Shown one piece after another: positions 5,486 to 59,453 of a stretch of DNA of 64,000 nucleotides. The position numbers were made by a program, and so were the translations under genes. This DNA is from Cucumis sativus (Eukaryota > Streptophyta > Magnoliopsida > Cucurbitales > Cucurbitaceae). Under the pieces are notes generated by a model that was given only the letters and a program-made list of their open reading frames with translations, did not search any database and was not told the DNA's origin. The stretch spans positions 6,882,001 to 6,946,000 of the forward strand of contig NC_026655.2 in NCBI RefSeq assembly GCF_000004075.3. The letters run 5' to 3'. The number at the start of each line of letters is the position of its first letter. Within the stretch, counting starts at the first letter, position 1.

Positions 5486-7461
5486 ATGCTGAATTCTGCC
5501 ATTATTTTTCACTACTTCTCACTTTCCTTATCCATGCATGCAAATGCTCTAACTCTTTACAAATGCAACACCAACAACTTCTTCACTGCTAATAGCAGTT
5601 ACGAGTCCAGTCTTAATCTCCTCTTTTCAACTCTCTCAACCAACGCCCCAGGTACCAACGGATTCTTCAATTATTCTGTCATCCGTACACCAAACGACAC
5701 CGTTTACGGCATCTTCCAATGCCGTGGGGACACCACCGACGGCTCGTGTCGGGATTGCGTTATGGAAGCTACTAGAAACGTAGCCTATCAATTCTGTCCC
5801 TTTAGGAAAAGCGCTGTGGTTTGGTATGACGATTGTCTGTTGCGTTATTCCGATCAAAATTTCTTTTCTGTTGTGTCCACTGAGCCACTTTACGAGTTGG
5901 ATAGCCGCGTTGATATTGCGTTCGACACGACCCGGTTTAACCAATTAGTGATGGCCACTTTGACGGCCATCGCGGCTAATGCCTCCTCGTTGGTAGTAGG
6001 GGAAATGTTTGCAACGCATGAGGCGATTTTTACATCAAATATAACGCTTTACACTTTGGCACAGTGTAATTCGGATTTGTCAAACACGGAGTGCCAAGAT
6101 TGCTTAACACGAGTGATTAGGGGTATTCCTGGTTGTTGTCGTAATAAAATTGGTGGGAGACTTTTGTTCCCGAGCTGTTATGTTCGTTATGAACTTTACC
6201 CGTTTTATCAGCTCAGTTGGACTAACCAGGTACCGCCTTCTGAATCCGCAACTCCTGATCAACAACCACCACTTCATTCCTCAGGTCACCATCCTCTTAT
6301 TTTCCTTTCAAAACACAATCTTACTAACTCAAACATATTAACTCTACACTTATAAACTTCACTCAAAGAAAGATTTATATTTATTTATTTAATTCAAACC
6401 ATTTACTAAACAAAAGTATGTCTGAGTTTGTAGAGCAGGGGAAAAGCAAATCCTTGAATGTGATGATTATAGCCATCGTGCTTCCAATAACTGCTTCCAT
6501 TCTGCTTTTGGTTTTGTGCTTGAGTGTCCTTCTCTGGAGAGCAAACAGGAAATACATGATTCTTGTTAAGCAAGAGAGTGGTATATATATAATATATAAA
6601 TTTATGTTATTGTTTTTCTCTAAATAATGTTATTTCAAAATATGAAATCCATTTGATTAATATTATTTGTGGGGGTTGGATATATTGTCCAGTTTTAAAT
6701 GAATCCAAAGATTTCGGATTTTGGTATGGCAAGAATTATTCAAATTGATGAAACTCACATAAACACACGTCGTATTGCTGGTACCTTGTAAGTTATATAT
6801 TATTCCATTTTGTAAACTTCTTAGTCTTGCTTTGAAAAAAAACGACTTAAAACAACTTTATCCTTGTTTCTGGATAATATTTGCCTGTTTTTTTTTTTAG
6901 CTGTTACATGTCTCCTGAATATGCAATGCATGGAATCTTCTCTATAAAATCTGATGTGTATAGCTTTGGTGTATTGCTGTTGGAGATTATAACTGGAAAG
7001 AAACATCAAACATTTTCTTTGTTAGGTATTGGTGAAGACATCTCGACTTATGTAAGTCATTAAGGGGGAAGATTTTCATTTCTTACTTGATATTGTTATA
7101 TAGTTAATTAATTAAAGGCAAGTTAATTTGTTTCGGTGGCCAGGCTTGGAAGCTATGGAATGATGGAACTCCATTAGAAATACTGGAGTCGAGTTTGAGA
7201 GACAAGTGCTCAAGAGATATGGTGATTAGATGCATCCATATTGCTTTACTTTGTGTTCACGATGATCCTGTACAAAGACCCTCCATGGCATCCATTGTTC
7301 TTATGTTGAATAGTTATTCGGTTACTTTGCCTGAACCTAAAGAGCCAACGTTCTTCAAGAGCAATATTAGAGAGAATAATGATAGTGCAGCAGTAGATGG
7401 TGATCAATCTAAGGGACTATCTTCCAATATAATATCTACAAGTGAGATGGATCGAGGATGA
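5486..7461 (+). pseudogene. Gene 2: CRK lacking the kinase N-lobe and catalytic loop
   Basis: Exon 1 (5486-6284) encodes a signal peptide starting MLNSAIIF and two intact DUF26 domains with C-x8-C-x2-C motifs (CRGDTTDGSC.DC and CNSDLSNTEC.DC). Exon 2 (6434-6580) encodes a membrane helix. The exons for the glycine loop, ATP lysine and HRD loop are absent. Kinase sequence resumes abruptly near 6698 at NPKISDFG and continues at 6901-7051 and 7144-7461. At the exon junction after DFG the usual YGYM reads FCYM. The missing block fits one deletion. If intron 2 is retained, translation ends at 6627 and gives an ectodomain plus membrane anchor of about 330 residues. I infer that it is dead as a kinase; a receptor-like protein without a kinase remains possible. 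Confidence 0.8.
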
Positions 7462-26988: not shown

Positions 26989-28265
26989 ATGAAACTTAGG
27001 CAAAGTATAAGATTTGTGAATATGGAGACTACTTTTGTTATGTTTGTAGTATTTTTCCTCCTTAGTTTCCCCATCCATGGGAGGCACCATCGAATTAGTT
27101 CCGACCAATATTTGGATAATCCGTTCCGTTACTGCTCCAATGCCACCTTCTCACCAAGCTCCACCTACTTTTCAAATCTCAAATCCCTCTCTTCCTCTCT
27201 CTCCTCCAATGCTTCTCACAGATTATTCTACCACAATGCTTCCGCCACCACCGTATACGGCGATTACCAATGCCGTGGCGATCTCAACGCCACAGCGTGC
27301 AAACACTGTGTCGCCAATGCCACCACCAATTCGTCGCAAACGTACTGCCCATTCAGTGTAGAGGCGGTTATTTGGAAGGATGAGTGTTTTTTGCGCTATT
27401 CCAACCGCTCATTCTTCTCGTTGCTGAGAGAAGAGCCGTTGCGGCACATAAATAACCAGGATAATTTCACTGGGGATGGCTTGGAAGCGTTTAAGAAAAT
27501 TGTAGAGACCACGTTGAACGATACGGTTAGAAATGCTTCTTCTTCTTCTTCTTCACACGTCAGATTATTCGGGACTAAAGAAGCGAGTTTTGGGTCGGAA
27601 ACGGTTTACACAATGGCACAGTGTACGAATGATTTGTCGTCTTCGAATTGTAGGAAATGTTTGAAACGTGCTGTACAAATAATTCCGTCATGCTGTAGTG
27701 GCAGAAGAGGAGCTAGAGTTTTGCTTTTTAGTTGTACTGTCCGTTATGAACTTTATCCATTTTACGATGGTGTTTCCCTCAATATTTCCCTTTCTCCTTC
27801 ACCTGCTTTTTCTCCACTATCATCACCACTAGCTCCTGAATTGGCTCCTCCGGCACAGTCTCCGTCCGACACAAACGACCCTTTTCCTGAACTGCCTCCT
27901 CCGGCTCAATCTCCCTCGAATTCGATCCCTTCTCCTCCTCCTCCTGATACATTGCCCTCCTCTCCTTCCATACCGCTACCACCCTCTACGGCGCCTTCTT
28001 CACTACTTTCAGGTGACACTAGCTCATATTCTTAATTCATGTAGTTCATCCAAGTTTTTAATTACCTTTTTTTTTTCGTTTGTGATTGGAGGAGAGTGCA
28101 TGCAAATAGGTGCGCAATCAAGTATTATTTACCATATGATTTATCAGAAAAGAGTATAAGAACTTAATCTAAATTAAACTATTTCGTTCTTTCTATGCAG
28201 GAAAAGGGAAAAAGATGACGGTGGCTATGGTGATAGGCATCGTTGTTGGAGGCGTTTTTGTGTGA
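26989..28265 (+). CDS. Gene 5: double-DUF26 protein with C-terminal hydrophobic tail, no kinase
   Basis: Exon 1 (26989-28012) and exon 2 (28201-28265) join in frame to 362 residues. The signal peptide may start at Met1 or at Met12 (METTFVMF). DUF26-1 has CRGDLNATAC.HC and DUF26-2 has CTNDLSSSNC.KC; the other conserved cysteines (TYCP, WKDECFLRYS, CC, FSC) are present. A long linker rich in Pro and Ser follows. Exon 2 sits where CRKs have their membrane exon but ends after KKMTVAMVIGIVVGGVFV with a stop. The protein therefore has a terminal hydrophobic helix and no cytoplasmic domain. That could be a membrane anchor or a GPI-attachment signal. No kinase exons are seen in the 2.3 kb that follow. 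I infer a CRK-derived receptor-like or secretory protein. Confidence 0.82.
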
Positions 28266-30664: not shown

Positions 30665-31710
30665 ATGAAATTTCTACTCCATCTCTTCTTCTTCACCTTC
30701 CTTGTCACCCATGGCAGCTCAGAAACTTTTATGGATCCTTTCCGTTACTGCTCCAACACCACCATCTCACCAAATTCCAACTTCTTTTCCAACCTCAATA
30801 CCCTCTCTTCATATCTCTCCTCCAATTCTTCTCGAAAATTCTACCACAAATCTTCTGTCCCCCCAGTTTATGCCCACTTCCAGTGCCGTGGCGATCTAAA
30901 CGCCACTGCATGCCACCAGTGCGTTGCCACAGCCACCTCCAATTCCTCTCAACAATACTGCCCTCTTAGTGTAGAGGCCATTATTTGGTTCGACGATTGC
31001 TTTTTCCGCTATTCCAACCGATCCTTCTTCTCCATCGTGGCAGAGCAGCCGTCGATGATTTTGATTAACCTCCAAGAAATTGGGGAGGAAAAAAGCAGTT
31101 TTGACCAAATTGTGGGTTCTGCGTTGAACGATACGGTGGTTAAGGCTTCTTCCCGGAAAGGGGATTTGAAATTTGCTACTAAAGAAGCTAGTTTTGGAAA
31201 TGAGACGGTTTACACGCTGGCGCAGTGTACAGGGGATTTGTCCAACTCAAATTGTAGGAAATGCTTGAGCAATGCTACTCGAAGATTTCCTGATTGTTGT
31301 AGTGGTAAAAAGGGCGGTAGGATTTTGTTTCCCAGTTGTAGTGTTCGTTATGAGCTTTATCCGTTTTACGAGAGCGTTTCGCCTTCCTCTGTTTCACCTC
31401 CACCGGCATCTGTCCCTCCTCCAACAGTGTCTTCTCCGCCGGCATTTTTCCCTCCTACAACAGCGCCTTCTCCACCGGCTTCAATATTAGCTCCACCTCC
31501 TACGTTGTCCTCACCGGCACCCTCTACGGCCGCTCCTCAACTGCTTTCAGGTGATAACATACTCATTCTTCGTAAAATTTTATTGGTCCTGTTTGAGTTA
31601 CAAACATTTAATTAAATCATTGTGTTGTTTTTGTTCTGTTTTGGACAGGAAACCTGGCGGCGACGGTGGCGTTGGTGATGGCCATTTTTGTTGGAAGCTA
31701 TTTTCCTTGA
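30665..31710 (+). CDS. Gene 6: double-DUF26 protein with C-terminal hydrophobic tail, no kinase
   Basis: Exon 1 (30665-31550) and exon 2 (31649-31710) join in frame to 315 residues. The order is a signal peptide MKFLLHLFFFTFLVTHGSS, DUF26-1 (CRGDLNATAC.QC), DUF26-2 (CTGDLSNSNC.KC), and a repetitive proline-rich stalk with SPPAFFPP / SPPASI-like units. The last exon, ending LAATVALVMAIFVGSYFP, is purely hydrophobic and stops. It is a paralogue of gene 5 with the same exon plan and the same lack of a kinase, so the kinase was probably lost before the two separated. It is likely extracellular and anchored by a helix or a GPI signal. Extensins and arabinogalactan proteins have similar stalk composition, but the DUF26 domains settle the family. 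Confidence 0.85.
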
Positions 31711-47307: not shown

Positions 47308-47667
47308 ATGGCGCTAAAACAACCATGTTCCACTCAAATCTTTTCAATTTCATCATCATCATCACCATCATCTTCATCTTCATCAGCCCAGCAATTTCTC
47401 AACCAAATTTTAGTTGTTCAAACAAGACTGGCAATTACACAGCCAACAGCATTTACAGCGCCAATCTCCAACACATCCTCTCTTCTCTCCCAACAGACGA
47501 GCGCATTGTCGAAGGCTTCCTCAACATCTCCTACGGCAAAGGCTCCAACAGAGTCAATGCCATTGCACTCTGCAGAGGAGACCTACCCCAAGAGGTATGC
47601 CGCAGTTGTTTCGGTGACTCTGTTTTGGAGCTTCCAACAAGATGTCCCAATGAAAAAGAAGCCGTGA
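47308..47667 (+). promoter_or_regulatory. Overlapping upstream ATG and frame before gene 9
   Basis: An ATG in the context CAATGGCG lies 17 bases before the gene 9 start in a different frame. It would give a 119-residue Ser-rich product overlapping the signal peptide and DUF26-1. The same upstream ATG at the same distance exists in gene 10 (52184), where its frame is only 35 codons. It may lower translation of the main frame. I do not claim that the overlapping product is real. Confidence 0.4.
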
Positions 47668-49958
47668 TTTGGTACCCCAATTGCATGTTTCGTTATTCGA
47701 ATCGATGGATTTTTGGGGTTGTGCAAGATGCTCCATCCTTTTGGATTTGGAATATTGAAGATGCACAAGACCTACAGGGGTTCAGTAAAGCAGTGCAGGG
47801 GCTGTTGACTCAGGTAGCAGAGGAGGCTGCTTTAGGAGATTCCAAGCTTAAATTTGCTGCTGGAAATGTCAGCATTGAGAATGAGGATTACTCGTCTGTT
47901 TATGGGCTGGTGCAATGCACGCCGGATATTTCACAGTCAGAATGCTTCGATTGCTTGCAAACTCTTGCTGGGGTTGTTCAAACCAGGTGTCCAGGGAAAA
48001 TTGGAGCCAGAATGATGAGACCCAATTGTATTCTTAGGTATGAGATTCAAAGTTTCTTTGATCCTGCTGTTTCCATACCTTCCCAGTCGACCCCACCACC
48101 GTCACCGCCATCCCCTCTCTTCCCAATCTCACCTCCCCCTCTTTCATCAAATACATCGACCAATGGAGAAGGTTTTCTCATTTTCTGTTTAAATTTGCAA
48201 GTTTAAGTCTTTCAAGTTATTGGCCAAACAAATTATTTAACCTTTTGTTTACATCAATGCTTATGTTTTACATTCATTATCTAACTCTGCAGAAAAGGAT
48301 TCCAAGAGATTGAAGACTGTCATCGTTATAGTTCTGCCCGTGGTTGTGGTTGTACTTGTGGTATTAATTGTCAGCATCTTCATCTTTTTAAGAGCAAGGA
48401 AACCAAGAGTTGGAGTTACATGTAAGAATCCCTTCCAAAAGGATTTAAGAAGTTTAGTTCTTGTGAATCTTTTGTAGGAAGGACTTGGAAAAAAGTTCAA
48501 CTTACACACATTTACTTGTTCTTCAGGTTCAGAAGTGGATGACACTGCAGATTTGGAAACTTTGGTATTTGATATCAGTACTATAAGAAATGCAACCGAT
48601 GACTTCTCAGATGAAAATCATATTGGACAAGGTGGATTTGGAACTGTTTACAAGGTTTGTGAGGAAAAATTCTTGGCTTTCTTTCTTTCTTTTGCTAATT
48701 CTTGAAAGTATTGAATAATGGAGTCTTTCAGATAACTCATTATATTTTTGTGTATTCTTTTGACAGGGAAGCCTTGTTAATGGACAAGAAATAGCAGTGA
48801 AAAGACTCTCCCAGAACTCCATGCAAGGAGAAAGTGAGTTCAAGAATGAAGTCCTGTTAGTGGCTAAACTTCAACACCGGAATTTGGTTCGGCTTCTCGG
48901 TTTCTGTCTGCACGAAGATGAAAGGATTCTTGTGTTCGAGTTTTTGCAGAACTCAAGTCTTGATAAATTCTTATTTGGTATGTTGTTTTTCCTCTCTAGT
49001 TAGAGTATCTTGAGACATTAATGCGTTGTGTTGTTCCTAATAAATCTCATTGTTTTAATGTTTAGATCCATTGAAAGGTCAAGATTTGGATTGGGGAATG
49101 CGCTACAAAATCATTTTAGGCATTGCTAGGGGCCTTGTTTATCTTCATGAAGATTCTCAAATTAAAGTTATTCATCGGGATCTAAAAGCCGCAAATATTT
49201 TATTAGATACAGAAATGAATCCTAAAATTTCAGATTTTGGCATGGCAAAGTTGTTTCAAGATGATGAAACGCGAGGAAATACAAATAAAATTGTTGGCAC
49301 TCAGTAAGTATAATATAAACAGTGGAAGAAACTCGTTAGCATACTCTTCATTCTATAAAGTATAGTATCATAAATTTTTTCTTCACACTTTAACTCATCT
49401 CTCACCATCTAGTCAATCTCAACAAATAATGTTCAAATTCAGGGGATATATGGCACCGGAATACGCAATATACGGAGCATTCTCAGACAAGTCAGACGTG
49501 TTTAGCTTCGGTGTATTAGTCTTGGAGATTGTGACTGGACAAAAAAACAGCTCTTTCTATCTGGAAAAGAACATAGATGATCTTATAAGCTACGTAAGTA
49601 TAAACATATCGTCAAATTACAAAATTCAGTCTCAATGACCTAAAAAGTAAATGCTCATTGCAATGAATTGGTGTAGGCATGGAGAAACTGGAGGGAAGGA
49701 ACAGCACTAAATGTTGTAGATCCCATATTGAAAGGTGGCCCAAGTAATGAAATAAAGAAATGTATCAACATCGGTTTGCTTTGTGCACAAGAACATTCAG
49801 CTGATAGGCCAACTATGGACACTGTACTTCTCATGCTGAGTAGTGACACAATCACTCTACCAATACTTTCTCCACCAGCTGATTTCATGAATAGGAAGCC
49901 CAAAACAGACATTTCTTCACCAGAAAGTTCTGGTTCACATGTGATAGAAATGGAATGA
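47325..49958 (+). CDS. Gene 9: complete cysteine-rich receptor-like kinase
   Basis: Exons 47325-48171, 48293-48421, 48527-48654, 48767-48977, 49066-49303, 49443-49593 and 49677-49958 join in frame to 661 residues. A strongly hydrophobic signal peptide ([17 protein letters not shown]) is followed by DUF26-1 ([12 protein letters not shown]), DUF26-2 ([12 protein letters not shown]), a Pro/Ser stalk and a valine-rich membrane helix. The kinase has [39 protein letters not shown] and YMAPEY. At the exon 5/6 junction the usual GTYGYM reads GTQGYM. All catalytic residues are present. It is the intact head of a tandem trio with genes 10 and 11, which share its leader, membrane exon and 3' flank. Confidence 0.92.
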
Positions 49959-51460: not shown

Positions 51461-52200
51461 GTTAAAGTAACATACAAACATTTGCTGAAAAGATTTTAGA
51501 AGTCGTCCAACAATCTCTAGAAGGAAATGGCTCTCCCTTAGGCAGGATTTGAGAACCCAAAAAAAGAAAAAAACAGCATCTTTTAACCAAGTTACAAAGT
51601 AGCCTAGACCAAGACCATACCAAGAAAAGAAAAACACACCAAAAGGATTTATAATAAAGAATACAAAACTAAAAGAAGAAACCAAGGGAAAGGAAAGTAG
51701 TATTCAAGTTGCAGATTTCAAGACTTTTCCATTCTCAAATAAAAAATGTTGGGACTTTTATACTAATTTTATAGGTTCCAACTTAAATTATATATACACC
51801 TCATTTTATTAAGTACGCCTCTGCATTTAAAAAATATATAAGCATTGTAATGATAAAAATATATACCTCATAGGCTATACTATATTATACAATGTATTTG
51901 ACAATTTATGGAATAAAACAATATATACCTTATGTCATTAATTGTGTACTCTAAAATTTATGGAATAAAAACGTGGAATGGAACACAAATATATAAATAT
52001 AAACTTACTCCATCCTTCAATGTATATATTTATATGAATAGTTAACTAAAGAGAAATCATACCCTGGTCTAATTAATGGGTTTTTAAATTGACCAAAGTT
52101 ATTCCTCCCACCAGAAACCATTAATGGTCAACAATCCAAGTTTCAGTTTTTATGGTTATATAATTCCATCATAGTCTTCACCAATGGCGCCAACACAACC
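51461..52200. other. Promoter region of gene 10
   Basis: The last 120 bases (GACCAAAGTTATTCCTCCCA, ACCATTAATGGTCAA, TTTCAGTTTTTATGGTTATATAA) are a clear duplicate of the DNA before gene 9 (about 47210-47290), including a TATATAA box. The remainder holds nothing recognised. Confidence 0.55.
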
Positions 52201-54430
52201 ATGTTCAACTCAAGCCTTCTCTTTTCTATCATCAACATCATCATCTTCTTCTTCTTCTTCTTCTTCATTAGCCCTGCCATTTGTCACCTAAATATCAGTT
52301 GTTCAAACGACAATGCCAATATCAGTTGTAATAATCTTAGGTTCAGTTTCTTTGACTCTGCAGCTGTTTCCAGAGTTTCCCGGTTGACCTTGCCGCCGAC
52401 ACCACCATCACATGATCTCTTGCCAGTCTCATCCCCCTCTCTTTCACCACATACAACAACCCATGTGAAAGGTTTATTTTTTCTCTTTTTCTTTTTCTTT
52501 TCAGATATGCAAGTTTGGTCTTTCAACTTTTAGTTTGTGTTTGGGTCTTCTTTTAATTTATTATGTTATAGAATCGATAAATAAAGAAAACGAAAATACC
52601 TAAATACTAAACAATAGACATACAAATTTATATGTTTCATTAACAATATGTTAGCTGCCTTCATGACCAGATAGAGCAATTTATTATTAGAGAGAAAATA
52701 TCACATGAACAGATTCTTTGCAATTTTTTTTGGAGTGTATTTGCTTATGTTTTACATTCATCTAGCTCTGCAGAAAAGAAGTCCAAGAGATTGAAGACTG
52801 TCGTCATTATAGTTCTGCCAGTGGTTGTTGTACTTGTGGTATTAATTGTTAGCATCATCATCTTTTTAAGAGCAAGAAAACGAAGGGATGAAGTTGCAAG
52901 TAAGAATCCATTCCAAAAGGATATAGCCAATTAATTCAAGCTGTGTGTTATCTTTTAAAGGAAGGACTTGGAAATGAGTTCAACTTGCAAATTAAATTTG
53001 TTGTACAGGTTTGGAAGTGGATGACACTGCAAGTTTGGAAACTTTGGCATTTGACATCGCTACTATAAGAACTGCAACGAATGACTTCTCGAGTGAAAAT
53101 TGTGTTGGAGATAGTGAACATGGAGTTGTTTACAAGGTTTGAGAGGAAATTCCTGGATTTCTTTTGCTAATTCTTAAAAGTATTGAATAATAATGGAAAG
53201 TCTCTTTTAAGTAACTCATTTATATTATATATGCTTTTGTGTATTCATTTGGCAGGGAAGCCTTGTTAATGGACAAGAAATAGCAGTGAAAAGACTCTTT
53301 GATCACGACTCCAAAAGTGAAGACAGTGTGTTTAAGAATGAAGTCCTGTTGTTGGCTAAACTTCAACACCCGAATCTAGTTCGATTTCTCGGTTTCTGCC
53401 TCCACGAGGAAGAAAGGATTCTCGTATTTGAGTTTTTGCAAAACTCAAGTCTTGATGAGTTCATATTTAGTATGTTTCTTTTTCTTCTCTCTTAGCATAC
53501 TTCAAAGGGTTTTGTTTAATTTGAGTATCTTGAGAGATTAATGCACTGTGTCCTGCCCAATTATAAATCTCCTTGTTTTAATGTTTAGATCCATTGAAAG
53601 GTCAAGAATTGGATTGGGGAACACGCTACAAAATTATTGGAGGCATTGCTAGAGCCCTTGTTTATCTTCACCATGATTCTGGAATGAAAGTTATTCATAA
53701 TAATCTTAAGCCTACAAATATTTTATTAGATGCAGAAATGAATCCGAAGATTTCTGATTTTTCCATGGTAACTCTGTTTCAACCTGGTTATCTACGAAAT
53801 TTGTGTCCGTAAGTATAAATATGGAAAGAAACTCATAATTAGCATATTCATCATACCTTAGTAACTTTCCTCACACCATCTAATTAATCTTACAAATGTC
53901 CAAATTCAGGGGATACAAGACTCCAGAATATGCAGTAATGGGAGCGATCTCAAAGAAGTCGGACGTGTTTAGTTTTGGTGTGATAGCTTTGGAGATTGTG
54001 ACTGGCAAAAGAAACAGCTCTTTACTAGAGAACTTTGATGATCTTATAAGCCATGTAAGTATAAAACATATGATTAAATTACAACACACTCAGTCTCAAG
54101 GACCAGAAAACTAATGTTCATTGCAATGAATTGGTGTAGGTATGGAGAAACTGGAGGGCAGGAACAGCACTAAATGTTGTTGATCCCATATTGAAAGATG
54201 GCCCAACTAATGAAATAATGAAATGTATGAACATTGGGTTGCTTTGTGCTCAACAAATAAAATCTGACAGGCCAACTATGGAAACTGTACTTCTGATGCT
54301 TAATAGTGACAAAATCACTCGACCAATAATTTCTCCACCAGATTATTACATGAATAAATTTAGGATCACCAGATCAGAATTTTCTTCCTCACCAAAGAGG
54401 TCCGGTTCCCATGTGATAGAGATAGAATGA
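52201..54430 (+). CDS. Gene 10: DUF26-less CRK-type membrane pseudokinase with open frame
   Basis: Exons 52201-52471, 52774-52899, 53009-53136, 53256-53469, 53589-53808, 53910-54054 and 54140-54430 all have GT/AG borders and join in frame to 464 residues. A signal peptide is followed by a stub that joins the start of DUF26-1 (NISCSN) to the end of DUF26-2 (FDSAAVS), so about 200 ectodomain residues are gone. Stalk and membrane helix are kept. In the kinase the glycine loop reads [10 protein letters not shown], the ATP lysine (IAVKRL) is kept, HRDLK has become HNNLK, DFG has become DFS, and YMAPEY reads YKTPEY. Changes in exon length against gene 9 are all multiples of three. Catalysis is very unlikely. 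It may be an expressed pseudokinase or a young pseudogene that still reads through. Confidence 0.75.
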
Positions 54431-55350
54431 GATGGGTCTCAAAGCAACTTCATCCAATCGTCGATTACTGAACCACGTATGTACTCATTAATTTTGAGAC
54501 TGACTTGTGTGTGCAATAATTTGTACGGATTTTCAAGAATCAGCAGACTTTTTTTTATTGGCCAAAGGAAGCATTATTGTTTCATATTCAAGTCTGTTTT
54601 TTATTCTGATCTCTTTCCTTCGACAATTTCTCATTAGTTCAGCAATCATAACATTGTAAAAATCCATAATGTTGCTATGAACCTAATTTATTAAACTTAT
54701 TCTGATAAATGTGCTCGAAGCCCTTATTTTAAATTAATTTGTGTAGTCAAAAGAGAGCATTCACAGAAAACTCAACCATAAAAATGTAAAATATTTGGGT
54801 TAATTAAATGATAATAATGTTAAAATTTGAAACCTTGTAAAACCAAATGAAATTTTGACTTCAGCCCTAAATATATATAAACAGAATGAATAATATTGTG
54901 CTCCATTCTTTTGCAAAAATAAAATTAAAAAAAAAAAAAAGGAAAAGAAAAAAGAGAGAATGTGTTCTAAGAAAATAAAACTATAATATTTGTTCTTCTT
55001 TCCATTAGCATAGTCTCATAATCTACTTGTTTCTTTTAATACAAATGAGACTAAGGGTACTGAACCAACTAGACTTCTTAATCTTGAACATAAATTGATA
55101 TCAGTCCAACTAAGCTATATCTACTTAAGAACAAACATATGAAGCATTAGTAGAGTCGAAGAGTTTGTATAACTCATTTCTCTAAATCCTAGGACCAAAA
55201 TTGTAAGGTGCTTAAATACTATAAATATGAATACAACTTAGATTATTGAGCAAACAAACAAATAATTTCATATGATAAGATTAAGCTTTTGGATCAATTT
55301 GTAGTTTAAGACTTTTCTTGTACTTATGTTATGGCATATTTTTTGGAGCC
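54431..55350. other. 3' flank of gene 10 and intergenic
   Basis: It begins with the shared 3' flank of the trio (CATCCAATCGTCGATTACTG, TTTTGAGACTGACTTGTGTG). No ectodomain exon for gene 11 could be found here. Confidence 0.5.
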
Positions 55351-56424
55351 TTTTTTGCTCAAGTTCTACATTCATCTAGCTCTGCAGAAAAGGAGTCCAA
55401 GAGATTGAAGGTTGTCATCATCATAGTTCTGCCAATAGTTGTGGTTGTTGTACTTATGGTATTAATTCTCAGCATCTTCATCAGGTTAATTAAGAGCAAG
55501 AAAACAAAGTCCATTCCAGAAGGATATAACCAATTAATTCAATTTTTGTGTTATTTTCTGAAGGAAGGACATGAAAATGAGTTCAACTTACACATTTACT
55601 CCTTCTATAGGTTCAGAAGTAGATGGCGAGAATGCAGATTTGGAGAGACTTTGGTATTTGATATCAATATTATAAGAACTGCAACAGATGACTTCTCAGA
55701 TAAAAATTATATTGGACAAGGGTGGATTTGGAGCTGTTTACAAGGTCTGTGAGGAAATTCTTGGGTTTCTTTCTTTCTTGTGCTAATTCTTAACAGTATT
55801 GAATAATAATGGAGTCTCTTTCAGGAAACTCATTATGTTTTTGGGTATTTTTTTGACAAGGAATCCTTGTTAAAGAACTAGAAATTGCAGTGAAAAGGCT
55901 CTACCATAACTCCATGGAATGAGAGAGTGAGTTTAAGAATGAAGTCCTGTTAGTGGCAACTTCAACACCAGAACTTTGGAGATTGTGACTGACCAGAAAA
56001 TCAACTCTTTCTATGAAGAAGAGGACATATATGGTATTATATGCCATGTGAGTATAGATAAATCATCAACTACAACACTCAATCTCAATGACCTAAAAGC
56101 TAATGTACATTGCAATGAATTGGTATAGGTATGGAGAAACTGGTGGGCAGGAACAACGCTAAATGTTGTAGATCCCATATTGATAGGTGGCCCGGCCCAA
56201 GTAATTGAATAAAGAAATGTATCAATGTTGGGTTGCTTTTTATCAGGAAAATTCAGCTGATAGGCCAAACTATGGACACTGTACTGTTCATGCTTAATAT
56301 AGTGACACAATCACTATACCAATACTTTATCCACTAGGTGATTATTACATGAATAAGTGCCCTAAATCAGGCATGTCTTCTTCACAGGAGAGGTCCGATT
56401 CCTATGTGTGATAGAAATTGAATG
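55351..56424 (+). pseudogene. Gene 11: collapsed CRK pseudogene
   Basis: A membrane exon begins near 55389 (EKESKRLKVVIIIVLPIVVVVV). The juxtamembrane and glycine-loop exon (about 55610-55745) carries an extra base inside the glycine loop, so the frame shifts near GQGGFG. The next exon (about 55860-55975) keeps traces of LVKELEIAVKRLYHNSM, then an in-frame stop in place of the Q-G turn. An internal deletion fuses it directly to EIVTDQKINSFYEEEDI, so HRD, DFG and PEY are missing. The last exon (about 56130-56424) has further frame breaks. No ectodomain precedes it. It is certainly non-functional and is the most decayed member of the trio. Confidence 0.85.
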
Positions 56425-57185
56425 AGATGGGCCTTGAAGCAACTTAGTCCAATCATCGATTACTGAATGACATCCTTGTTAATTTTGAGACTGACTTGTG
56501 TGTGCAATAACGTGTACAGATTTTCAAGAATCAGCCTGACTTTTTTATTGGCCAAAAGAAGACTTTTCATTCAAAGTGTGTTTGTGCAATATAAGGACAG
56601 CTAGAAATATACTCTCCCAATTTGTTTCATATTGTTTTTATGACTCAATATCTTCAGTAATGTCAATAGCAAATGGGTTTTGATTCAGATCTCTTGTATT
56701 CATAAATTTCTCATCAGTTCATCACTCATATCAGAGGGATTATTAGTTTCTACATTTCAAAAATGTATATTGTTTCTAAGAGTTTGTTCTAAACTTTCTA
56801 CATTGTAGCAAACTAACACAAACATCATGACAAAAATTTCATAAGTTCAATGTTTTCTCTAAAATGGCTCTCTTAGACAGTATTTAATTTGAGAACCACA
56901 AAAAGCAGCATCTTCTCACCAATTTACTAGAACAAAACGTGATAACCAAAACCAAGACCATATCCAGGAAAGAAAAAAAAAAAAAAATACAAAGTAGAAG
57001 AAATAAAATAAGCTTCCCCTCCTTAGAGAGTTGACTTTAGTTAGCTTTACAAGTTAAGAGTACAAGTAGGATTTATAATAAAGAATACAAAATAAAAGGA
57101 ACAAAACCAAGGAGAAGGAAAGTCTTTCAAGTTGCAGATTCATGACTTCCATCCTCAGATAAAAAAATGTTCCAACTTTCAACAA
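56425..57185. other. 3' flank of gene 11 and region between convergent genes
   Basis: It starts with the shared 3' flank of the trio (TCCAATCATCGATTACTGAA, TTTTGAGACTGACTTGTGTG). Genes 11 and 12 converge here. No gene is seen. Confidence 0.5.
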
Positions 57186-58096
57186 CTAGAGAATCATCAC
57201 AACCATCATTAATACTGCAAGGGAAATGCAAATTGTTCTTCCACCATCTGGAAAAGACCATCTTCCACCTGCATTCAAACAAGAAACTATTTTTACATTG
57301 TGATCTTGCAAACAACTCAAGCACAAACTACGAACTCACCTGCACTAGTTGAAAAATTGAAGTAAAACTGATGATCATGATACCACATAAAGCAATTGAA
57401 TCCATATATTTCCCAATCTTTCTTACTCCCAATGGTTGTCCTAAAGGTAGCCAATTGAGAGTTGAGACACTGAGCACAATCACTCCCACTGATATCTCTA
57501 GTACACTGAGCCATCCCATATCTCTTTCCTTTCATACCAGCATTCAAAACATCAGTTTGAAACATCAAGTTCTGATAAGAGGCAGATGAAGCCAATCCAC
57601 TCATTAGAGACAAACCATAAGAAACCAAAGATGGGTCATCATAATTGGTGTCATTAAAAATAGCCACTGAAGTTTGACTCAAAACCCCAACGAAGTTATC
57701 AGTGGAATACCTAAGAAAACACCATGTAAACCAAATCATAACATCTTTGCTTTCAGGACACTCAGACAAAGCAAAAGCAGAGGAGTTTTTTATGCAGCTA
57801 CCACAGTCGATTGAAGAAACGTCACCTCTGCATTGAACAAGACCAAAGATTTGGTTTGAACTCTCTCCATTGGAGGTGCTGTAAAAACCTCTAAAAAGAG
57901 GCCCATTTTCAGCCAAAGAGTCCAAAAGATTCTTCAGATTGGCCTTGAAATCGTTCTCGGTTGTAAAGCTATCAGATTTAGAACACTGTCGGCCACAGTT
58001 CAAGTTTGTATCAGCACAGCAAAAGAAAGAACCGAATATTATTAACAGTAAAGTTGTGGATAGATACAAGGTTGACAAGAATTTGAATGCTCCCAT
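57186..58096 (-). CDS. Gene 12: cysteine-rich repeat secretory-type protein (two DUF26), hydrophobic C-terminus
   Basis: On the minus strand, exon 1 (58096 down to 57340) and exon 2 (57268 down to 57186) join in frame to 279 residues. I chose the ATG at 58096 because MGAFKFLSTLYLSTTLLLIIFG is a good signal peptide; an upstream in-frame ATG at 58189 would add 31 polar residues. DUF26-1 has CRGDVSSIDC.SC and WFTWCFLRYS. DUF26-2 has CTRDISGSDC.QC and CFMWYHD, and lacks the CC pair common in CRKs. Exon 2 ends in ICISLAVLMMVVMIL and a stop, giving a terminal hydrophobic tail that could be a membrane span or GPI signal. There is no stalk and no kinase. It is only distantly related to the CRKs here. 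A plasmodesmata-located-protein relationship is possible, but a cytoplasmic tail is missing. Confidence 0.82.
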
Positions 58097-59453
58097 TTCA
58101 TTTGGATGGTGTTTTCCTCTCAAAGTTTGATGAAGTTGATATTGAAGTTGTTGAAGAAGTTTTAGGAGCTTGTTAAGATTAAAGAACACTCATTAAAGAA
58201 AGAAAGTCATAGCCTTTTTTCCCCCTTTGTTGTTCTTTGTGCACAAAAGTCAACTTCATTTCTATGATGGCTGGATAGATAATTAAATTAACAGCAACTT
58301 TGATAAAAGTCAACTCCAAATGTCATCCTAATTTGGCAATTGTTAGTGGCCTCTACATACTTTCAGGAGGCAAGATCAGTAAACTCAAGTGCCCAAGATT
58401 GACATTTCATTGTTCATCGATGAGAAAGGAAAAACAAAAAACTATTTTTATGAAACTATAGGTTTGATCTAACTTAAGGGATAAATAGTTTGTGTAATTA
58501 AAACCACTATGAAACATGTCTCTATTCACTCAAAATTGGTTTAAACTATTAAAATCGTATTTTGCATTACCTTTGGATACGGCAAAAATGATGTTCACCT
58601 CTATAAAATCACTCCCAAGTCTCCAACCATGTTTGTTACTAACGAGACCATAACATTAGTAATAGTTTAATTAGACATGGTAACATGTTAAAACTAATGA
58701 GTTGTTCACGCTAAGACTTAAGATATCTATAGCATTTCCTTTTTATCAATATTTCCATCAACGATTTAAAACCCAGTTTCCACTAAACTTGTATACAAAC
58801 ATGGAAAAAAGTAGAACTTTGCAGTAGTAGCTTTGATTCTTAATTAGCTAAGAATCATCAATGCCTGAAAATGCAGAAACCTAACTTTGAAAAGGGAAAT
58901 ATATATATAATAGCAAACACATCCAACTGTCACAGAAAAGCTATAAAGTAAAGTTGGTTATGCATTAATCCATATAATAACAATGGGAAAGCAATAAGAT
59001 TAGAAGATCAGAGCAAAATAAAGATAATGATGGGGTTAATTAGGGAATTGATGCTGGATCTGAGATGGATAAGATTATATTATATATCCATGGAAAAGAA
59101 GTTGATGGGGACAGCCAATTATATTTTGCTGTATTACTCTTTTTGCTTTTTCTGGGGAGATATATATAAATGAATGTGATAGTGATATATATATATTATA
59201 ATTCTATGAATGTTTAGGTTAGCTGTGAAATATTTTTTGATATGTACGAAATTCGTAGTATTGGATTCCAAGCCCACAGAATCACACCCTTTTTTCTTTT
59301 TCTTTTTTAGTTTAAAAGAAGAATGTCAGAGAGAGTTTAAATTTTGCATTGAAAGCTAAATATATACTAAAATATGGGTATCAGAGAAGTTTGTTTTAGT
59401 CAATTCTACAACGGTTTACTTAATTTCTAATGCTTGTGGTCTACATTTCAAGT
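58097..59453. other. Upstream region of gene 12 and intergenic
   Basis: It probably holds the minus-strand promoter of gene 12 just after 58100. Beyond that it is AT-rich with short TA runs (about 58905 and 59185). No gene-like frame. Confidence 0.45.

Follow-up and report, generated by a model that had tools for sequence, protein, structure and literature searches.

Gene 10 of a cucumber CRK array keeps an open reading frame after loss of its ectodomain and of catalytic kinase residues

The window analyzed here, a stretch of 64,000 nucleotides of Cucumis sativus chromosome 1 (C1:6882001-6946000), holds a CRK-like locus (gene 10) that lacks a DUF26 ectodomain and canonical catalytic residues, and reads as one open frame over seven exons. 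Is such a locus a gene under constraint, or a copy on its way to decay? An earlier note on this DNA had leaned to the former, proposing a constrained membrane pseudokinase that perhaps modulates the neighboring gene 9. The array offers a three-copy comparison, consisting of an intact receptor kinase (gene 9), an open-frame pseudokinase (gene 10) and a dead copy of similar divergence (gene 11), whose features are collected in Table 1.

Table 1. Positions in the window of gene 10, its parts and its two neighbors.
Feature	Position	Strand	Description
Gene 9	47325..49958	+	661-aa intact paralogue with seven exons; TM, two DUF26 stretches and an HRD/DFG kinase
Gene 10	52201-54430	+	seven exons, 464-aa open frame
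Gene 10 exon 1	52201..52471	+	N-terminal hydrophobic segment 52201-52284, ectodomain remnant, stalk; its counterpart in gene 9 is 576 nt longer
Ectodomain-loss junction, gene 10	52318..52344	+	NISCNNLRF; 12-nt repeat of 52291-52302 begins at 52318
Intron-1 insert part, gene 10	52557..52715	+	matches dispersed genomic copies; repeat-like
Gene 10 exon 2	52774..52899	+	transmembrane segment 52800-52868, juxtamembrane RARK
Gene 10 exon 3	53009..53136	+	glycine loop GDSEHGVV at 53107-53130
Gene 10 exon 4	53256..53469	+	AVKRL (ATP Lys) 53283-53297; alpha-C Glu in NEVLL 53337-53351
Gene 10 exon 5	53589..53808	+	HNNLK 53696-53710 (gene 9: HRDLK); DFS 53756-53764 (a manual count in the exon frame); activation loop, shortened, from 53780
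Gene 10 exon 6	53910..54054	+	GYKTPEY 53911-53931
Gene 10 exon 7	54140..54430	+	C-lobe and tail; ends in TGA
Gene 11	55356..56804 (about)	+	decayed third copy; deletion mid exon 4 to mid exon 6

The exons of gene 10 measure 271, 126, 128, 214, 220, 145 and 291 nt and those of gene 9 847, 129, 128, 211, 238, 151 and 282 nt, giving net differences for exons 1 to 7 of -576, -3, 0, +3, -18, -6 and +9 nt, all multiples of three; the values for exons 2, 4, 5 and 6 are exactly those given in the earlier note, and exons 1 and 7 are in frame as well. Each gene has six introns, all of them GT-AG, exon phases are identical between the copies, and the single stop in the gene 10 frame stands at its end. 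The claim that splice borders and frame were kept over seven exons is thereby borne out. An out-of-frame ATG located 17 nt before the coding ATG is common to genes 9 and 10 (47308 and 52184).

The loss in exon 1 takes out both DUF26 domains, as had been claimed: Pfam finds no PF01657 in gene 10, against two stretches in gene 9, and the C-X8-C-X2-C motif, which gene 9 has at residues 83 and 198, occurs nowhere in gene 10. The remnant retains three cysteines, the first of which lies at the end of the hydrophobic segment, and a Ser/Pro/Thr-rich stalk. At the junction a 12-nt repeat copies sequence 27 nt upstream (52291 and 52318), and it looks like filler from break repair. The transmembrane (TM) segment reaches a Kyte-Doolittle 19-residue mean of up to 3.66, within residues 94-127, and the N-terminus is hydrophobic with a mean of up to 2.73. 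Within intron 1, the insert sequence recurs on several chromosomes, as a dispersed repeat or small transposon would.

The kinase domain is recognized by Pfam (PF07714) with 120.8 bits, compared with 168.1 for gene 9. Its glycine loop, GDSEHG, keeps the first and third glycines and has serine for the second, while the VAIK lysine (AVK) and the alpha-C glutamate are both in place. The catalytic loop, HNN-L-K, has HNN for HRD and retains the lysine and the downstream asparagine; DFG has become DFS with the aspartate kept, APE has become TPE, and the activation loop is 6 aa shorter. The motif losses and the two retained residues named in the earlier note were thus all found, and the changes from HRD to HNN and from DFG to DFS place gene 10 among pseudokinases, taken as kinases that have lost a canonical catalytic residue. 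The glycine loop of gene 11 is still GQGGFG-like except for one inserted base, so the loop change is gene 10's own. In a census of 70 of the 150 genomic matches to exon 5 (the top 30 plus 40 from further down, not strictly rank-ordered), HRD is found in 66, with one each of HNN (gene 10), HRN (CsCRK13), HHD and HYN; DFG is found in 68 of the same 70, with one DFS (gene 10) and one DYG. Two of these unusual exons lie on other chromosomes, L012 (C6:28869859) with HHD (non-RD) and L080 (C4:2105607) with HYN plus DYG; CsCRK13 (L011, C1:6963994-6964188), outside the window, is an annotated full-length CRK with HRN for HRD and may be kinase-dead. Among solved structures, the gene 10 kinase matches best to receptor kinases of the BRI1 and BAK1 type, and no molecule named CRK stands among the best 60 of 2285 matches. 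Set against the CRK plan of seven exons coding for ectodomain, TM and five kinase exons, as described in the available part of PMC6368629, gene 10 lacks the DUF26 ectodomain and has the kinase of CRK descent, the seven-exon layout and the TM helix.

Genes 9, 10 and 11 form part of a tandem CRK array that continues beyond the window's right edge. Kinase exon positions fall within the CsaV3 coordinates of CsCRK4, CsCRK8, CsCRK15 and CsCRK13 on chromosome 1, as given in the available part of PMC10131431, and the window is accordingly taken to be Cucumis sativus Chinese Long v3; the same part of the paper lists 15 CsCRKs, all with DUF26, and gene 10 was not found in that listing. For CsaV3_1G011210 to 011250, no paper was found among main texts; that gene 10 is one of these is a guess from spacing. 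Exons were collected from plus-strand matches only, with 11 of 24 external loci (L024-L028, L033-L038) yielding none and the window's kinase genes at about 46-1234 and 6699-7356 left out, and in the resulting tree of exons 3-7 from 19 aligned genes, genes 10 and 9 group with a support of 100, with protein-level branches of 0.36 and 0.04, respectively. Gene 11 falls within this clade too (K 0.192 from gene 9 and 0.233 from gene 10; genes 9-10 0.222), and three rootings for the split order of the three genes lie within 2.6 lnL units. For gene 11, no credible match to exon 1 was found in 54431-55400. The downstream flanks of gene 9 (51525-51758) and gene 11 (56862-57179) are similar, which hints at a duplication unit. 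Beside gene 11, a DUF26-like open frame of 290 aa (57317-58189, minus strand) had no same-strand kinase exon matched alongside and resembles a secreted DUF26 protein; DUF26-like exon stretches also occur at 27271-27876 and 30866-31372, and from these up to 35886 no kinase exon was matched.

Whether the open frame of gene 10 was kept by selection can be judged from the indels. In the introns and flanks of genes 9 and 10, 25 of 30 indels are not multiples of three, whereas in a nucleotide alignment of the coding sequence 2 of 10-11 are off-frame (p 2e-4 to 6e-4 against non-coding DNA); exons 2-7 alone give 2 of 7 (p 0.009). The statement that no exon difference breaks the frame holds for the net lengths, but the -18 nt of exon 5 aligns, in all three settings, as two off-frame gaps that cancel each other (14+4 or 17+1). 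This pair represents either a break of the frame that was afterwards reversed or a single complex -18 event; if it is counted as one event, 0 of 11 coding indels are off-frame (p 1.4e-6). Gene 11 shows what free decay looks like, as the earlier note held, with 9 indels that break the frame, as well as 2 in-frame stops, over a retained coding stretch of 703 compared bases, besides its large deletion. Gene 10 has, over 1395 bases, at most two frame-breaking indels, mutually cancelling, and no internal stop. The expectations set against this are rough, because the rates come from one dead copy and AT-rich introns: about 18-30 frame breaks from gene 11's rate and 19 from non-coding rates, or 8.1 if equal time is assumed and the lower limit of gene 11's rate is taken, at which the probability of two or fewer is 0.012. 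Stops expected number 7.2-8.3 at a branch length of 0.38-0.44 (probability of none 2e-4 to 8e-4) and 4.7 at a length of 0.25 (0.009), with a range of 4.7-10.2 over lengths of 0.25-0.54. The 12 splice dinucleotides and the start codon would have been expected to take 3-5 mutations, and the probability of none is 0.008-0.03. Selection to keep the reading frame of gene 10 is well supported by these comparisons.

The residues behave otherwise. A dN/dS near 1 in the kinase exons, named beforehand in the earlier note as an outcome speaking against its proposal, is what the gene 10 lineage gives; of the proposed constraint, the part that concerns the frame stood, through the shortage of breaks and stops, and the part that concerns the residues was not shown. 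Branch tests used 9 genes, 9 plus gene 11, or 17 genes, depending on the fit. With nine genes and 320 codons, a branch codon model run with our own script gave an omega of 0.17 for the background, 0.12 for gene 9 and 1.28 for gene 10, the last being compatible with 1 (2dlnL 0.31, p 0.58) and distinct from the background (2dlnL 42.6, p 7e-11). When the branches of genes 9 and 10 were given equal time in a joint fit, the omega of gene 10 was 0.89, and the likelihood had fallen by about two units near 0.6 on one side and near 1.3 on the other. Addition of gene 11, which contributes 187 usable codons here and 166 in the compared columns of the mixture model described below, gave 0.96-1.18 for gene 10 and 1.05-1.18 for gene 11 under three rootings, and equality of the two was not rejected. 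A 17-gene model gave 0.199 for the background, 0.13 for gene 9 and 1.24 for gene 10. Across the joint fits, gene 10 takes values of 0.89-1.28, with an interval of about 0.6-1.3, and gene 9 values of 0.10-0.16. Changes unique to one copy agree with this picture: at codon positions 1 and 2 they amount to 0.030 in gene 9, 0.098 in gene 10 and 0.087 in gene 11, compared with 0.110, 0.098 and 0.079 in non-coding DNA. Avoidance of family-invariant sites is no stronger in gene 10 (ratio 0.53) than in the dead gene 11 (0.48).

Several values that might be taken as proof of residue constraint were rejected. The pairwise dN/dS of genes 9 and 10, at 0.47, is misleading, since a large part of the constraint comes from gene 9, where the branch tests place it. 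With a three-class background and gene 10 held to the time of gene 9 (0.634), omega takes a value of 0.70, and 1 is rejected (2dlnL 10.2); this was not relied upon, since neutral simulations in a related framework with free time average 0.72-0.78 (range 0.46-1.41). Relative to neutral simulations, gene 10 is also short of amino-acid changes (81 against 101.3) and rich in silent ones (39 against 25.6; P 0.000 and 0.002 of 1000), while gene 11 has 46 amino-acid changes against 43.8. Here, silent changes of gene 9 were credited to gene 10, as the parsimony ancestor equals gene 9 wherever gene 11 has no codon. Lastly, the single-base replacements of gene 10 are more conservative than would be predicted (z 3.2; gene 11, z 1.0), but with all changes included the values are 1.2 and 1.05. 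Constraint on the residues of gene 10 is therefore not shown, and its dN/dS of about 1 equals that of gene 11.

Few frame breaks together with a dN/dS of about 1 fit neither full neutrality, which would not produce so few breaks, nor constraint until a recent death, which would not produce a dN/dS near 1 with so few breaks; a loosely constrained coding gene, its residues mostly at liberty or in part driven to change, fits both observations. The account that we tentatively prefer, without giving it the greater part of our confidence, is that gene 10 remained a coding gene over most of its existence, as a membrane pseudokinase devoid of an ectodomain, while constraint on its residues was either relaxed or hidden by adaptive change. 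It would have been born as a tandem duplicate of a cucumber CRK, have lost the DUF26 ectodomain through a net in-frame loss inside exon 1 and the catalytic base through the change of HRD to HNN, and have retained its coding frame for most of the time while most residues were free, or driven, to change. The protein, if made, would be anchored by the TM segment, with a stub outside and inside a kinase fold incapable of the usual phosphate transfer; if it acts, it would do so non-catalytically, through retaining or blocking an active kinase as its partner, be it gene 9 or some other CRK; such a role has been proposed for ARLPK1 with AKIK1. The membrane pseudokinase of the earlier note fits this anatomy; we infer translation, membrane location, inactivity and partner. 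On this analogy, what gene 10 binds would be an active CRK or the substrate of one, and gene 9, as the closest intact relative and next door, is the natural candidate.

The chief alternative, an unlikely one but deserving serious weight, is that gene 10 is dying now: it would have gone on as a CRK-like protein of weak use, its residues little constrained, and have no present function, its frame being open since disabling changes were weeded out until recently or happen not to have fixed so far. A dN/dS of about 1, the same as in the dead gene 11, would be expected of such a gene, the ectodomain and the catalytic base are both gone, and the exon-5 gaps may record a frame break and its cancellation. 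Over the whole branch, however, about 26-27 disabling events would be expected, and the share of the branch free of frame selection is at most about 11% if no break occurred, or about 24% by our own arithmetic if the two exon-5 gaps count as breaks. Had normal constraint at 0.17 been followed by recent death inside these limits, dN/dS would, again by our arithmetic, lie near 0.26-0.37, below the supported range of about 0.6-1.3.

An average of about 1 could also arise if most sites were constrained and a minority driven, as in an adaptively changing pseudokinase that serves as a decoy or guarded protein, which we consider rather improbable. A mixture model bears on this directly: on the gene 10 branch (320 codons) it places 76% of sites in a constrained class and gives the fast sites an omega of 7.7, with a 2dlnL of 38 (38.07) over full neutrality, and it finds no constrained class in gene 11. 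For the 166 codons common to both genes, the gain for gene 10 is 14.7, and 0.4 of this is due to a constrained class with an omega of 1 elsewhere. Upon removal of codons near gaps, a 2dlnL of 18.4 remains, but removal of codons with two or more changed bases abolishes the signal. Work on codon models takes up multi-nucleotide substitutions (PMC10336034, available part). Between genes 9 and 10 such events, or local misalignment, do occur, since differences are clumped in non-coding DNA too (50 adjacent pairs against 32 expected). With the full alignment, none of 17 plain-neutral simulations and none of 46 with 20% multi-nucleotide events match the observed signal. With gap flanks removed and 20% multi-nucleotide events, however, 9 of 46 neutral simulations reach the observed value for the constrained class and 5 of 46 that for the total; without such events, 0 of 17 do so in either codon set. 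A cruder ancestor gave 0 of 82 simulations reaching the observed signal, the constrained-class part peaking at 1.33 against 11.94 observed, although the best neutral run with 15% multi-nucleotide events came to 37.75 against 38.07. Because it fails some multi-nucleotide controls, the mixture signal was rejected as proof of constraint, and a constrained core with fast sites in gene 10 is suggested rather than shown. A narrower form, to which we give a shade less credence still, would make gene 10 a membrane-anchored decoy or dominant-negative partner that descends from an active tandem CRK and has its pseudo-active face under diversifying selection; its core would be conserved and its glycine, catalytic and activation loops driven.

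Gene conversion from gene 9, in place of selection on gene 10, might have preserved the frame, and an identical run of 46 bp at the acceptor of exon 4 exceeds permutation expectation (P = 0.0065); this we regard as very improbable, as exons and introns alike have diverged (0.11-0.33 per 100 sites), no long tract is present, and the introns of genes 9 and 10 differ with a pooled K of 0.25. Tandem duplicates can feed small RNAs, but a locus acting only as RNA would not keep its frame, and we give this hardly any weight.

Two signals that are usually merged as constraint come apart in gene 10, the frame being gene-like and the residue change pseudogene-like. The locus is also a warning that a pairwise dN/dS or an intact frame alone is not proof of function. 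Were gene 10 transcribed and shared with relatives, it would provide a natural test of the passage from receptor kinase to non-catalytic partner.

The architecture of gene 10 resembles that of plant pseudokinases without an ectodomain, an already known kind represented by ARLPK1/2 and CORYNE (CRN). CORYNE is a long-conserved gene of another receptor-kinase family than that of gene 10. The available part of PMC4983110 describes it as a pseudokinase and co-receptor of the separate receptor protein CLV2. BRASSIKIN pseudokinases are, like gene 10, tandem and lineage-restricted in plants and have lost HRD and DFG, but they are receptor-like cytoplasmic kinases that have lost VAIK as well (PMC6907349, in part). 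The CRCKs, cytoplasmic CRK derivatives that have arisen at least three times by loss, share with gene 10 a CRK-type kinase without DUF26; unlike gene 10, which keeps both its TM segment and its hydrophobic N-terminus, they are also devoid of signal peptide and TM. The part of PMC6368629 that describes them judges most CRKs to be active kinases and sets gene models without full domain structure aside as pseudogenes. Closer to hand, CsCRK13 (CsaV3_1G011280) of the same cluster shares the change of the catalytic aspartate to asparagine, but it is annotated as a full-length CRK with DUF26 (PMC10131431, in part) and has a normal DFG.

The nearest parallel is with ARLPK1 and ARLPK2 of Arabidopsis (At5g61570, At5g07620), which, in the available part of PMC4848489, are negative immune regulators with no kinase activity detected; ARLPK1 associates with the active receptor kinase AKIK1, through which it may work. 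They have an N-terminal signal-peptide/TM region, to which the hydrophobic N-terminus and TM segment of gene 10 compare, and, like gene 10, no extracellular domain, serine for the second loop glycine, asparagine for the HRD aspartate (HGN in the ARLPKs, HNN in gene 10) and the DFG aspartate kept. They differ in lacking the VAIK lysine, which gene 10 keeps, and in an overlap of signal peptide and TM, whereas the two hydrophobic segments of gene 10 are separate; gene 10, for its part, has DFS, and AKIK1 is an LRR-I receptor kinase and no CRK. Gene 10 groups with the cucumber CRKs in the 19-gene tree, and its likeness to the ARLPKs is one of shared features.
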